Source: a virus. Taken from it: a stretch of DNA of 21,555 nt. The notes under the pieces are model-generated. The model did no database searches, was not told the DNA's origin, and saw only the letters and a list, made by a program, of their open reading frames with translations. How positions within the stretch are numbered: the stretch's first letter is position 1; each line of letters opens with the position of its first letter. The DNA lies in IMG/VR virus record IMGVR_UViG_3300045743_000074, positions 1 through 21,555 of that record, one strand, 5' to 3'. Of this stretch, positions 12,466-17,882 are shown piece after piece. Made by a program: the position numbers and the translations under genes.

Positions 12466-14034
12466 GTGAGCTTCAACGGAAACGGAACATTTAGCCCCTA
12501 CACCCCTGGAAACCCCGCTGTAACGGGCTCAGTCGTCAGCAGCACGGCATTCAACAACACGGTTAACGACATTGCCACGGGCCTGTCAAATACTCTGACC
12601 AGAGACGGCCAGAGCCCCGCTACGGCAAACATTCCCATGGGCGCCAACAAGATCACCGGACTGGCGAATGGAACAGCAGCTACGGACGCAGCTAACTTAG
12701 GCCAGTTCGCAGCAAGCACCGGATCATCCCTCGTCGGCTTCATCCAGTCCGGAACTGGTGCTGTGGCACGGACGGTGCAGGATAAGGCTCGAGAGAGTGT
12801 GAGTGTCAAGGACTTTGGGGCGGTAGGGGATGGGGCAACGGATGACACTGCTGCTATTCAGGCTGCAGCTAACTCTGTTATTGCTACGGATACTTCCCCT
12901 GTATCTTCGGCAGGCGTCAGAAAGACTCTATTTTTCCCACGGGGGACGTATAGGGTTACGGCACAGCTTACCATTCCAGCGTTCGTAACCTTGGAAGGCG
13001 ATGAAACTTTTAGAAGCACCATTCAATTTATTGCTTGGGGGACCAGCGCCTCTGACGCAGCGATAGTTTTCGCGGACACAAGCGTAAAGATTCTAAAGAA
13101 TCTACACCTTGTTGGCACAGGTCAATGGAGCGCATTGGTTCAAATCAATCGTGCTGACAACAATTGTGCTATCGATAATTGCCTTATACAAGCATCTAAT
13201 GGAACAACTTACGCAACACTCAGTACTAATTGCGTAAAGATATTGGCAGGTACTCAGTTCTACACCTACACACTTTATTGTTCTGGAGCAAAAGAAAATA
13301 TATGGTCTGTAACAAATACACCAGTTATTGAAGTATCTCCAATATGCGATTTTGTAGATTCACATATCACATTTTCTGGAAGCCCGAATGAAGCGGGGTA
13401 CACATCAACAGGAGGTGTGTATGAAATTTCAGCAGCGATACCTGCTGGTACTGGTCTTAGAAGGGGCGTATTCTGGAATAAAAGTAACGGGGTAAATTAT
13501 GTGAGTATGCATGGTGCAAGCGTTAGAGGTGGTTCAGTCATAGGTGCTATTGTCTACTCGGATAGTTCATACAACGTAGACAACATAGTTCTGTCTTTTG
13601 TCTCTGCAATACCAATTGCTTTTATTCCATACTATTTTTACGCAAGTGTTTTTGGACCAGATCGGCACAAAGTAAATACAGGGACTGCTTTTGTAGGTGC
13701 GGCGCAATCTTACGTTGAGTATCCAACACTAACTGGATGTGTTAATGGTGCTGGATACTTACCGGTGAAAGCTACGCTGAATATGCTTACTCGGCAGGTA
13801 ACAATTACAGGCGTTGTAACGGGATTAAGCAATATATCGGCTACCATTATTGCAACACTAACAGCACCGCTTCGACCTCGTGCGACATATTCTTCCATTC
13901 AGAATGTTAGTGCAGGTTATGTTGCTGTGACAGTTGATACTGCTGGTCAAATTGCAGTTCGTGCTCACGTTGCACATGATGGAGATGCCAGCGTGCTGAC
14001 AACAATAAATTTGTGCTACCCAATAGATTTTTAA
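12466..14034 (+). CDS. Tailspike with pectate-lyase-fold (receptor binding/depolymerase)
   Basis: This 522-residue protein is probably the trimeric spike that recognises, and may cleave, a host surface polysaccharide. It starts with GTG after AAGGAA. Residues 1-85 look like the virion-attachment part (FSPYTPGNPAVTGSVVSS, then MGANKITGLANGTAATDAAN). Residues 95-136 hold the linker and the hallmark SVKDFGAVGDGATDDTAAIQ of the Pectate_lyase_3 superfamily start, followed by FFPRGTYRVTAQLTIPAFV, the usual first coil of a right-handed beta-helix. The rest is Ser/Thr/Asn/aromatic-rich beta structure with no recognised catalytic residues. Base composition changes sharply after about 12900: the first third is GC-rich like its neighbours, the remainder AT-rich. 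This suggests exchange of the receptor-specific part by recombination. Confidence 0.82.
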   Translation: MSFNGNGTFSPYTPGNPAVTGSVVSSTAFNNTVNDIATGLSNTLTRDGQSPATANIPMGANKITGLANGTAATDAANLGQFAASTGSSLVGFIQSGTGAVARTVQDKARESVSVKDFGAVGDGATDDTAAIQAAANSVIATDTSPVSSAGVRKTLFFPRGTYRVTAQLTIPAFVTLEGDETFRSTIQFIAWGTSASDAAIVFADTSVKILKNLHLVGTGQWSALVQINRADNNCAIDNCLIQASNGTTYATLSTNCVKILAGTQFYTYTLYCSGAKENIWSVTNTPVIEVSPICDFVDSHITFSGSPNEAGYTSTGGVYEISAAIPAGTGLRRGVFWNKSNGVNYVSMHGASVRGGSVIGAIVYSDSSYNVDNIVLSFVSAIPIAFIPYYFYASVFGPDRHKVNTGTAFVGAAQSYVEYPTLTGCVNGAGYLPVKATLNMLTRQVTITGVVTGLSNISATIIATLTAPLRPRATYSSIQNVSAGYVAVTVDTAGQIAVRAHVAHDGDASVLTTINLCYPIDF

Positions 14035-15643: not shown

Positions 15644-15660
15644 CTACTGCGTAGTTTTTT
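15644..15660 (+). terminator. Weak terminator-like hairpin after the holin
   Basis: CTAC (15644-15647) pairs with GTAG (15651-15654) around TGC, followed by six T residues (15655-15660). The stem is only 4 bp, extended by G-U pairs, so it may be a poor terminator. It also contains one of the TGCGTA repeats. Confidence 0.4.
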
Positions 15661-15686
15661 GCGTATTTCCTGCGTTTTCCCTAGCT

Positions 15687-15723
15687 AAAGCCACCTTGAG
15701 CCAAGGTTCGGATGGGGCTTTTT
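15687..15723 (+). terminator. Rho-independent terminator at the end of the late arm
   Basis: AAAGCC (15687-15692) pairs with GGCTTT (15716-15721), enclosing an inner hairpin CCTTG/CAAGG (15694-15698/15702-15706), and is followed by T residues to 15723. It should stop late transcription before the integrase gene. The A run on the 5' side gives it some activity in the reverse direction too. Confidence 0.65.
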
Positions 15724-15732
15724 AGGGGGTCT

Positions 15733-15761
15733 TTCACTCTGTAGAGCTACTGTCATATACT
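15733..15761 (+). promoter_or_regulatory. Sigma70-like promoter for integrase
   Basis: TTCACT (15733-15738) and TATACT (15756-15761) are separated by 17 bp, matching 4 of 6 and 5 of 6 consensus bases. Transcription would start near 15768, and three TGCGTA repeats (15779-15815) would lie in the leader before the integrase ATG, which suggests possible control by whatever binds them. Confidence 0.5.
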
Positions 15762-15833
15762 TCTGTTTACCCAGAAAGTGCGTACTTCGGTGCGTATCTT
15801 TTTCTGGACTGCGTAGCAAAAACAGGAGCGGAA

Positions 15834-16874
15834 ATGGCATCAGTCTACAAACTCCCCAACGGCAAGTGGCGGGCAACAGTGCGGGTCAAGGGCCACAAGG
15901 AAGTGACCAAGCAGAAGAATACCAGAGCGGCGGCGGCTGTCTGGGCGGCAGACAAGGAAAAAGAACTGCGTGGCGGCGTTGCTGCATCTGGCGAGAAAAG
16001 CACCATCAGTGTGCTGATCTCTAAGTTCCGGGCTCTGCGAAAGCGTGGCAGGCCCATCATCGAAAAGTCCACGGAGGACTACACCCTGAAGATTCTGGAC
16101 CGATCAATCGGGGACTTGGTGGCGGCAGACCTGACGGTTGAAGACATACAAGGCTGGGCGCTCAAGCGCAGCGACGAGGGTGCCGGTGGGTACAAGATCG
16201 GCTGCGACCTCTCCAAGCTGGCTACCGTGCTGCGTGTGACCCTTCCCAGGTCGGTGTTCGTGCTGGACGAGGCAAGGCCAAAGCTGGCCTACATCGGGCT
16301 GATCGAGGGCGCCAATACCAGGGACCGCAGGCCCACGGCAGAAGAAAGTGTAAAGATCAAGGCCTGGATGGAGCAGTTCTATGGGCACAGGTATCGGGAC
16401 TTCGTGGCGTTCGGTGAACTTACGGCAATGCGCCGGGCTGAGATTGCCGGGCTGCTTTGGTCCGACATCGACGAGGCTCAGAAGATGGTGCTGGTGCGGG
16501 ACCGCAAAGACCCTAAGCACAAGATCGGCAACCACCAGTGGGTGCCGCTGCTCGCCGGGTCATTCGACCTGATGATAGCGCAGCCCAGGGTTGACGAGCG
16601 CATCTTCCCGATTGCGCCCAAGTACATCACCAAGGCTTTTACGGAATGCCGCAAGGCGCTCGGCCTTGAGGACATCGTGTTCCACGACATGCGGCATGAG
16701 GGCATAAGCCAGATGTTCGAGCATGGTTACGACATCCCCAAGGTGAGCATTGTGAGCGGTCACAAAGATTGGAAGAACCTGAAAAAGTACACCAACATCA
16801 AGCCGCAGTCTTTGCACGAACACGACACCCGTCAAGGTACGCCGCCACATCCTGATAAGCCGCCCACCGCTTAG
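15834..16874 (+). CDS. int: Tyrosine site-specific recombinase (integrase)
   Basis: This 346-residue integrase would insert and excise the phage genome. Residues 1-50 form a basic arm-binding-like N-terminus (KLPNGKWRATVRVKGHKEVT). Residues about 55-155 are the core-binding domain. The catalytic domain follows with R200 (TAMRRAEI), a candidate Lys in RKDPKHK (225-230), H284 and R287 (HDMRHEG), H310 (SGHKDW) and Y319 (KKYTNI). All expected residues are present, so it should be active. AGGAGCGG precedes the ATG by a good distance. Direct repeats and a sigma70-like promoter lie upstream. The last 77 bases overlap a convergent winged-helix gene. Confidence 0.93.
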   Translation: MASVYKLPNGKWRATVRVKGHKEVTKQKNTRAAAAVWAADKEKELRGGVAASGEKSTISVLISKFRALRKRGRPIIEKSTEDYTLKILDRSIGDLVAADLTVEDIQGWALKRSDEGAGGYKIGCDLSKLATVLRVTLPRSVFVLDEARPKLAYIGLIEGANTRDRRPTAEESVKIKAWMEQFYGHRYRDFVAFGELTAMRRAEIAGLLWSDIDEAQKMVLVRDRKDPKHKIGNHQWVPLLAGSFDLMIAQPRVDERIFPIAPKYITKAFTECRKALGLEDIVFHDMRHEGISQMFEHGYDIPKVSIVSGHKDWKNLKKYTNIKPQSLHEHDTRQGTPPHPDKPPTA

Positions 16875-17025
16875 ACCCCTCGACATAGGTCGGCACGGGG
16901 AAGGTCTCCGCGCTAATTTGGTTATAGATCGTCTGCTTGGCGATCTGCATGGCCTCCGCAAGCTGCTCCATGGTCAGGCGCAGGCCGTACTTGTCTGCGA
17001 TGATGGCTTGTGTCATCAGGCTCAT
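16798..17025 (-). CDS. Small winged-helix DNA-binding protein, candidate excisionase
   Basis: This 75-residue protein has a helix-turn-helix (about 18-38, MEQLAEAMQIAKQTIYNQIS) followed by a wing-like segment FPVPTYVEGSKRWAAYQDVA (42-61). The pattern TIYN-x-I, TFPVPTY and RWA is typical of AlpA/excisionase-like MerR-fold regulators. The start at 17025 (MSLMTQ) is chosen because GGAGAG lies 6 bases upstream and the ATG overlaps the preceding stop as TAATG; longer frames start at poorer sites. Being convergent with and overlapping integrase at its 3' end supports a role in excision or in directing integrase. A transcription regulator is the alternative. Confidence 0.7.
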   Translation of the reverse strand: MSLMTQAIIADKYGLRLTMEQLAEAMQIAKQTIYNQISAETFPVPTYVEGSKRWAAYQDVAAYLDGCRVRAKTAA

Positions 17026-17189
17026 TATTCTCTCCATCCAGGCCAGAAAAAGGTTAAGCAGCAAGCCGAAAGCGATGCGTATGCGAGAAAGAAGGCTACG
17101 ACGCCACGCTCATTGAAGTCATATCCGCCTGCCCATGCCAAGAAAGCAAAAGCAACCGCAGGAATGCACGAACCGATATATCGCTTCAT
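17025..17189 (-). CDS. Small membrane protein, 54 aa
   Basis: The protein has a short basic N-terminus (MKRYIG), a hydrophobic helix (about 7-21, SCIPAVAFAFLAWAGG), a charged hinge YDFNERG and a second hydrophobic helix (30-48). The start at 17189 has AAAGGAG 8 bases upstream. The stop overlaps the next ATG (TAATG), and the start overlaps the end of the upstream gene (17186). No family was recognised. Placement in the early operon suggests an accessory or host-interaction role, which is inference. Confidence 0.6.
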   Translation of the reverse strand: MKRYIGSCIPAVAFAFLAWAGGYDFNERGVVAFFLAYASLSACCLTFFWPGWRE

Positions 17190-17570: not shown

Positions 17571-17882
17571 TTACGCACGGCACATCGCGGCCTTGGCTTG
17601 CTCTGCGCCGTGGGCTGGCTCATAGGTCATTTCAAAGATGTCAGGCTTGCAAGGGTAGAACTCACCCTTCACGCCTTTGATGATGAAGTCTCCAACGCTG
17701 ACGATGTGTTGACCTTCTAGGGTGGCGATGCTCCACATCTGTATTGTGCGATGGTGTGGTCGGTGGGTTAGCCCTGCCGTAATAAGTTCAGGCCAACGGG
17801 CTTGGATTGTCTCCATGCTGCTATAGGAGCCATCCCACTGCATAGCCTCAATCACGACTGGTTTCTTGCGGTACATACTCAT
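17571..17882 (-). CDS. Conserved phage protein, MYRKKPVVIEAMQ type
   Basis: This 103-residue soluble protein is of unknown function. It begins MSMYRKKPVVIEAMQWDG and contains SIATLEGQHIVSVGDFIIKG (51-70) and VKGEFYPCKPDIFEMTYEP (71-89). This pattern is familiar from many temperate phages and prophages of proteobacteria, usually annotated as hypothetical. It probably forms a small beta-rich fold. The start at 17882 has AGGAGGAACG before it and overlaps the upstream stop (ATGA). The length is slightly greater than usual because of a charged C-terminal tail. Confidence 0.7.
   Translation of the reverse strand: MSMYRKKPVVIEAMQWDGSYSSMETIQARWPELITAGLTHRPHHRTIQMWSIATLEGQHIVSVGDFIIKGVKGEFYPCKPDIFEMTYEPAHGAEQAKAAMCRA

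Follow-up and report, generated by a model that had tools for sequence, protein, structure and literature searches.

The TGCGTA repeats located 5' of the integrase gene in this viral genome fragment are very probably arm-type sites of a phage attachment site (attP), with the core predicted at 15696-15706 and an int promoter placed such that the integrase (Int) could repress its own synthesis. Based on sequence comparison, this reading is assigned a probability of roughly 0.87, because related phages carry the same layout and the two repeat clusters are found separated at the ends of their prophages. The window, i.e., the whole stretch of 21,555 nucleotides that was analysed, represents part of a podovirus-like phage genome and carries head and tail genes. 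Endolysin and holin genes are located just upstream of int, and int is followed by a convergent excisionase-like gene:

15834 to 16874, plus strand: tyrosine integrase of 346 amino acids (PF00589, E 5.8e-15; phrog_1)
16798 to 17064, minus strand: excisionase-like protein, probable RDF (phrog_1300 excisionase, E 3.4e-7)

The integrase residues R200, K225, H284, R287, H310 and Y319 are invariant in the alignment and form the full R-K-H-R-H-Y set, so that the catalytic domain is that of a tyrosine recombinase (phage integrase). A Pfam search of its N-terminal domain returned no arm-binding match, and Int_N (PF24624) is matched by four of seven aligned members. The excisionase-like reading frame overlaps the 3' end of int at 16798-16874; its listed TTG start is probably too long, with ATG codons following at residues 10, 14 and 17. 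Elsewhere in the window, the tail spike gene (12466-14034) encodes a pectate-lyase-like domain (PF12708), and a small minus-strand open reading frame (17571-17882) resembles genes of Gordonia, Mycobacterium, Vibrio and Streptococcus phages at the DNA level (71-84% similarity across about 75-115 bases), which is an unusual breadth. A close relative of the phage, L423, shares about 85% DNA identity over most structural genes of the window; L423 (17500-19051) ends at the 3' half of a tRNA-Leu and no homologue of the window integrase was seen there. The integration module may have been exchanged between the two phages.

Upstream of int, five exact copies of TGCGTA span 15648-15815 on the plus strand, joined by the near copy TGCGTT. 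The motif count bore out the positions and the single orientation given in the earlier note for these six sites.

15648 to 15653, plus strand: putative left arm-type site L1, TGCGTA, exact copy; relatives carry a left pair of one motif, 11-13 bp apart, at the same place
15660 to 15665, plus strand: putative left arm-type site L2, TGCGTA, exact copy, 30 bp from the TTGA of the core
15671 to 15676, plus strand: possible third left site, near copy TGCGTT, in an 11-bp register
15779 to 15784, plus strand: putative right arm-type site R1, TGCGTA, exact copy, in the int leader downstream of the promoter
15791 to 15796, plus strand: putative right arm-type site R2, TGCGTA, exact copy
15810 to 15815, plus strand: putative right arm-type site R3, TGCGTA, exact copy

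The start-to-start spacings are 12 and 11 bp in the left cluster (TGCGTT included) and 12 and 19 bp in the right one, in agreement with copies mostly 11-12 bp apart, and the right cluster does lie inside the int leader, the int ATG being at 15834. Most relatives have only a pair on the left, which bears on the possible third site. TGCGTA is the only hexamer in the whole window with at least five copies in 170 bp. The motif is somewhat frequent elsewhere in the window (16 copies on both strands versus 6.8 expected), as would suit a cluster that arose by chance or as a low-complexity feature. However, only 0.7% of 300 order-2 Markov shuffles of the window hold any hexamer cluster of this kind, and the integrase family keeps repeats at the same place with a changed sequence, which contradicts a chance origin and makes it extremely improbable.

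Relatives of the integrase, about 34-61% identical, were fetched by alignment-based scans. Exact-peptide scans with the window integrase alone yielded zero relatives, and a pattern scan of viral contigs for TGCGTA triplets yielded mainly repeats that look like coding sequence, without any relative of the integrase. The family is found mostly in Burkholderiales prophages and displays a common layout upstream of int: a pair of short direct repeats, approximately 30-41 bp, a core, an int promoter, further copies of the repeat and the int start. The motif varies by phage (TGATAC, TGCTAC, GTGAGTC, GTGCAC) and is the same to the left and right of a given core. At least three copies of a hexamer including a pair 9-14 bp apart occur in 54% of 147 distinct int upstream regions, for which duplicates were removed by similarity of the last 120 bp only, so that one lineage may be represented by several records; the same pattern occurs in 4% of shuffles and in 7% of random stretches from the same loci. 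The resemblance of TGCGTA to arm-type sites is thereby supported, with a motif that changes between phages and a spacing that is kept. For L337, the integrase with 61% identity, the record is cut inside int and the attP lies outside view. Short repeats, GTGCAC-like or TGCTAC, also precede int in more distant relatives (L474, L476, L478), which lie at the 5' end of a dusA-like gene. The core of five further members (L029, L039, L043, L044, L046) is CACTGAGCTACGGAGGC and resembles the 5' end of a different tRNA; therefore, target choice varies within the integrase family.

The attL/attR comparison proposed earlier could be carried out in integrated relatives. In many relatives a tRNA-Arg(CCT) is located about 110-190 bp 5' of int (ARAGORN), and the core of the integrated relatives, TTGAACTACG, lies at the 5' end of this tRNA. 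A pattern search in eleven genomes or contigs revealed a second core copy in four bacterial genomes. In the four integrated relatives, one end has the intact tRNA and the core side by side, with the right repeats and int after them, and the other end consists of a pair of the same repeat followed by the core 32-41 bp further on. As an example, the two core copies in Noviherbaspirillum are 40.5 kb apart on a single contig, and in Pseudorhodoferax GTGAGTC is present at both prophage ends. Thus, the same motif flanks the core and the clusters part to opposite ends, which is the behaviour due from arm-type sites flanking an attP core. Moreover, left pairs with the right-arm motif are found at 0 of 17 loci with an intact tRNA and at 10 of 45 loci without it (0.4 expected). 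No integrated copy of the window phage or of a near relative was found.

The core of the window phage was placed by its homology to the family core, its spacing to the left arms and a promoter block common to the relative L372:

15696 to 15706, plus strand: predicted core TTGAGCCAAGG, homologous to TTGAACTACGG of the relatives, placed by the spacing to the left arms, to the int ATG and to the promoter block

The gap between the second left arm and TTGAACTA measures 31-33 or 41 bp in eleven relatives; in the window phage, the TTGA of TTGAGCCAAGG follows that arm after 30 bp. Over TTGAACTACGG, 8 of 11 positions of the predicted core are identical to the family core. The distance to the int ATG is 138 bp, compared to 112-155 bp in most close relatives. 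L372 combines GTGAGTC arms and a TTGAACTACGG core on the common scaffold; its promoter block is identical to that of the window phage at 29 of 32 positions and lies 37 bp from the core versus 36 bp in the window phage. The predicted core thus falls inside the interval 15677-15778 in which it had been expected, and TGCGTA flanks it on both sides (15648 and 15660; 15779, 15791 and 15810), as in a heterobivalent attP. According to this model, the N-terminal domain of the integrase would bind TGCGTA on both sides and the catalytic domain would act on TTGAGCCAAGG, the exact crossover, like the binding itself, being a prediction. Recombination with the chromosome would bring L1 and L2 to one prophage end and R1-R3 together with int to the other.

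Two features between the core and the int start concern the expression of the integrase:

15733 to 15761, plus strand: predicted sigma-70-like int promoter TTCACT-17-TATACT, the sole such site in the region (0.0 expected), in the block shared with L372
15771 to 15807, plus strand: predicted hairpin of the leader RNA with a UUCG loop; R1 and R2 lie within it

The predicted promoter lies within the att region, as in KplE1-type elements, and it is situated between the core and the right arms, which places R1-R3 in the int leader. Across the family, the sigma-70 consensus is weakly supported (18 of 52 versus 11.5 expected by shuffle). Int bound to R1-R3 would block int transcription from 15733-15761. 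By analogy with a known system, autorepression is likely, and the autocontrol suggested in the earlier note fits since the predicted promoter sits between the core and the right arms and is conserved in L372. The position of the right cluster downstream of the promoter would equally suit operators for a separate regulator of int, a repressor or the excisionase-like protein encoded at 16798, and some RDFs do control int promoters, such as TorI in KplE1 (PMC2951348). Operators of this kind are nevertheless improbable as an alternative to arm-type sites: the same motif also occurs on the left side of the core, past the promoter, and the left copy of the relatives is carried to the opposite prophage end, 40.5 kb off in one of them, where an int operator would have no need of it.

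The repeats could also act in the leader RNA, with the R1/R2 hairpin, its UUCG loop and a T-run attenuating the int mRNA. A terminator-like site is predicted at 15778-15797 and the fold of 15768-15836 has -21.7 kcal/mol (z -2.4). However, terminator-like sites are expected 0.4 times per shuffle, attenuation leaves the left cluster unexplained, and relatives such as L011 have the direct repeats and lack such a hairpin, so that this explanation of the repeats is very improbable. Rfam yielded no credible match. According to the predicted fold, the hairpin could exist in addition to the arm-type sites, with a possible side effect on the int mRNA, or it may be incidental.

With the arm-type reading of the repeats, the bacterial target can be considered. 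When the central region (15666-15778) was compared by BLAST to 401 genomes from the GTDB family that includes Pseudorhodoferax, recurrent 19/20 matches appeared at 15687-15706; the genus and family of the genomes were taken from the named loci around which they were drawn. The inspected matches fall in a perfect intrinsic terminator that separates a bcp-like peroxiredoxin gene from a phoH-like gene; several variants of this terminator match at 21 of 21 positions (AAAGCCACCTTGAGCCAAGGT):

15687 to 15707, plus strand: stretch AAAGCCACCTTGAGCCAAGGT, identical to the host intrinsic terminator according to BLAST; candidate attB identity block

Of 103 genomes belonging to one genus, 36 contain the terminator match, 35 of them as a single copy. 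When the query sequence was reversed, so that its composition and hairpin character were preserved, the same genomes yielded no recurrent match of this type. The E-values are at chance level per genome, the weight coming from recurrence and position, and other recurrent chance matches also arose in the BLAST of the central region. Matches to a response-regulator gene (HoxA-like) and a NusB-like gene in Burkholderiales were judged to be chance because they lie within conserved coding sequence and do not extend. Two terminator copies in genome G812 were rejected as prophage ends, being redundant copies of one host locus. A core representing a tRNA 5' end was likewise not supported: exact matches were missing from 399 genomes, and the matches obtained had no tRNA next to them. 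Neither the core nor the terminator block turned up in exact scans of viral contigs, and a search for a relative of the major head protein in the terminator-carrying genus, which is of little weight, found none. The host-genome search for the core proposed in the earlier note delivered a matching candidate terminator and no integrated copy of the phage.

The intrinsic terminator between the bcp- and phoH-like genes in Burkholderiaceae is the best candidate for attB, at about even odds. The candidate attB sequence would be AAAGCCACCTTGAGCCAAGGTGGCTTTTT, with junctions expected inside CCTTGAGCCAAGG if this candidate is right. The chance that the attP is as described and attB is another site in an unsampled host, e.g., an unusual tRNA 5' end, is just short of even. 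No integrated copy was found at the terminator in the genomes examined, the host of L423 may be another genus, and the closest integrases with known sites use tRNA-Arg, all of which would agree with another target. Against it stand the absence of TTGAGCCAAGGTTCG from 399 Burkholderiales genomes and the recurrence of the terminator match, which the reversed query did not reproduce. Furthermore, a minus-strand -10 element lies beside the core in 36 of 52 tRNA-type relatives (13 expected), where it could drive the tRNA after integration; it is absent beside the core of the window phage, in line with a non-tRNA target. Tentatively, and at somewhat less than even odds, a lineage of integrases acting at the 5' ends of tRNA-Arg and dusA may have switched to the bcp/phoH-like terminator, swapping core and arms and keeping promoter and spacing; the terminator mimic of the phage would rebuild the hairpin at each junction, and int would be repressed through the arm sites in its leader.

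Within the family, the swapping of arms and cores forms a clean natural series. Predicting arm-type sites from sequence is difficult, and the family provides dozens of attP sites with nearly constant spacing and varying arm and core motifs, making the arm-binding code and the evolution of target choice directly testable. For an uncultured phage, predictions of attP, core and int promoter are thereby ready.

The layout is of a known kind, i.e., a heterobivalent attP whose arm sites and promoter lie upstream of int. The attP of phage lambda is likewise heterobivalent, its core being flanked by arm-type sites on both sides; unlike in the window phage, it lies 3' of int and the int promoters are elsewhere. 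The position of the arm sites 5' of int, which the earlier note had set apart from lambda, is not unusual because integrase promoters overlapping att are predicted for most tRNA-associated integrases (PMC2951348). In KplE1, negative autoregulation of intS by the integrase through the overlap of arm and promoter was tested, and its IntS/TorI attL similarly has arm-type sites 5' of int over the promoter region and a separate RDF gene (PMC2951348). KplE1 differs in integrase sequence and in attB; moreover, a KplE1 arm site overlaps the -10 box, whereas the right arms of the window phage lie in the leader, downstream of the predicted promoter. According to Farrugia et al. (2015, PMC4482086), islands with dusA-associated integrases use a 21 bp site in dusA, and the 5' part of the target is supplied by the element. 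The more distant relatives with short repeats before int at a dusA-like 5' end resemble these islands; the window phage has another core, and arm repeats were not met in the searched passages of the article. Also comparable are the Burkholderiales prophages L088, L089, L090 and L091 at the 5' end of tRNA-Arg(CCT), whose integrases are 43-48% identical and which have the same order of left pair, core, promoter region, right repeats and int. Their arms are TGATAC or GTGAGTC versus TGCGTA, and their core at the tRNA 5' end is TTGAACTACG (TTGAACTATG in L091) versus TTGAGCCAAGG. The window phage thus works like the tRNA-Arg(CCT) group and is set apart from its members by the target.
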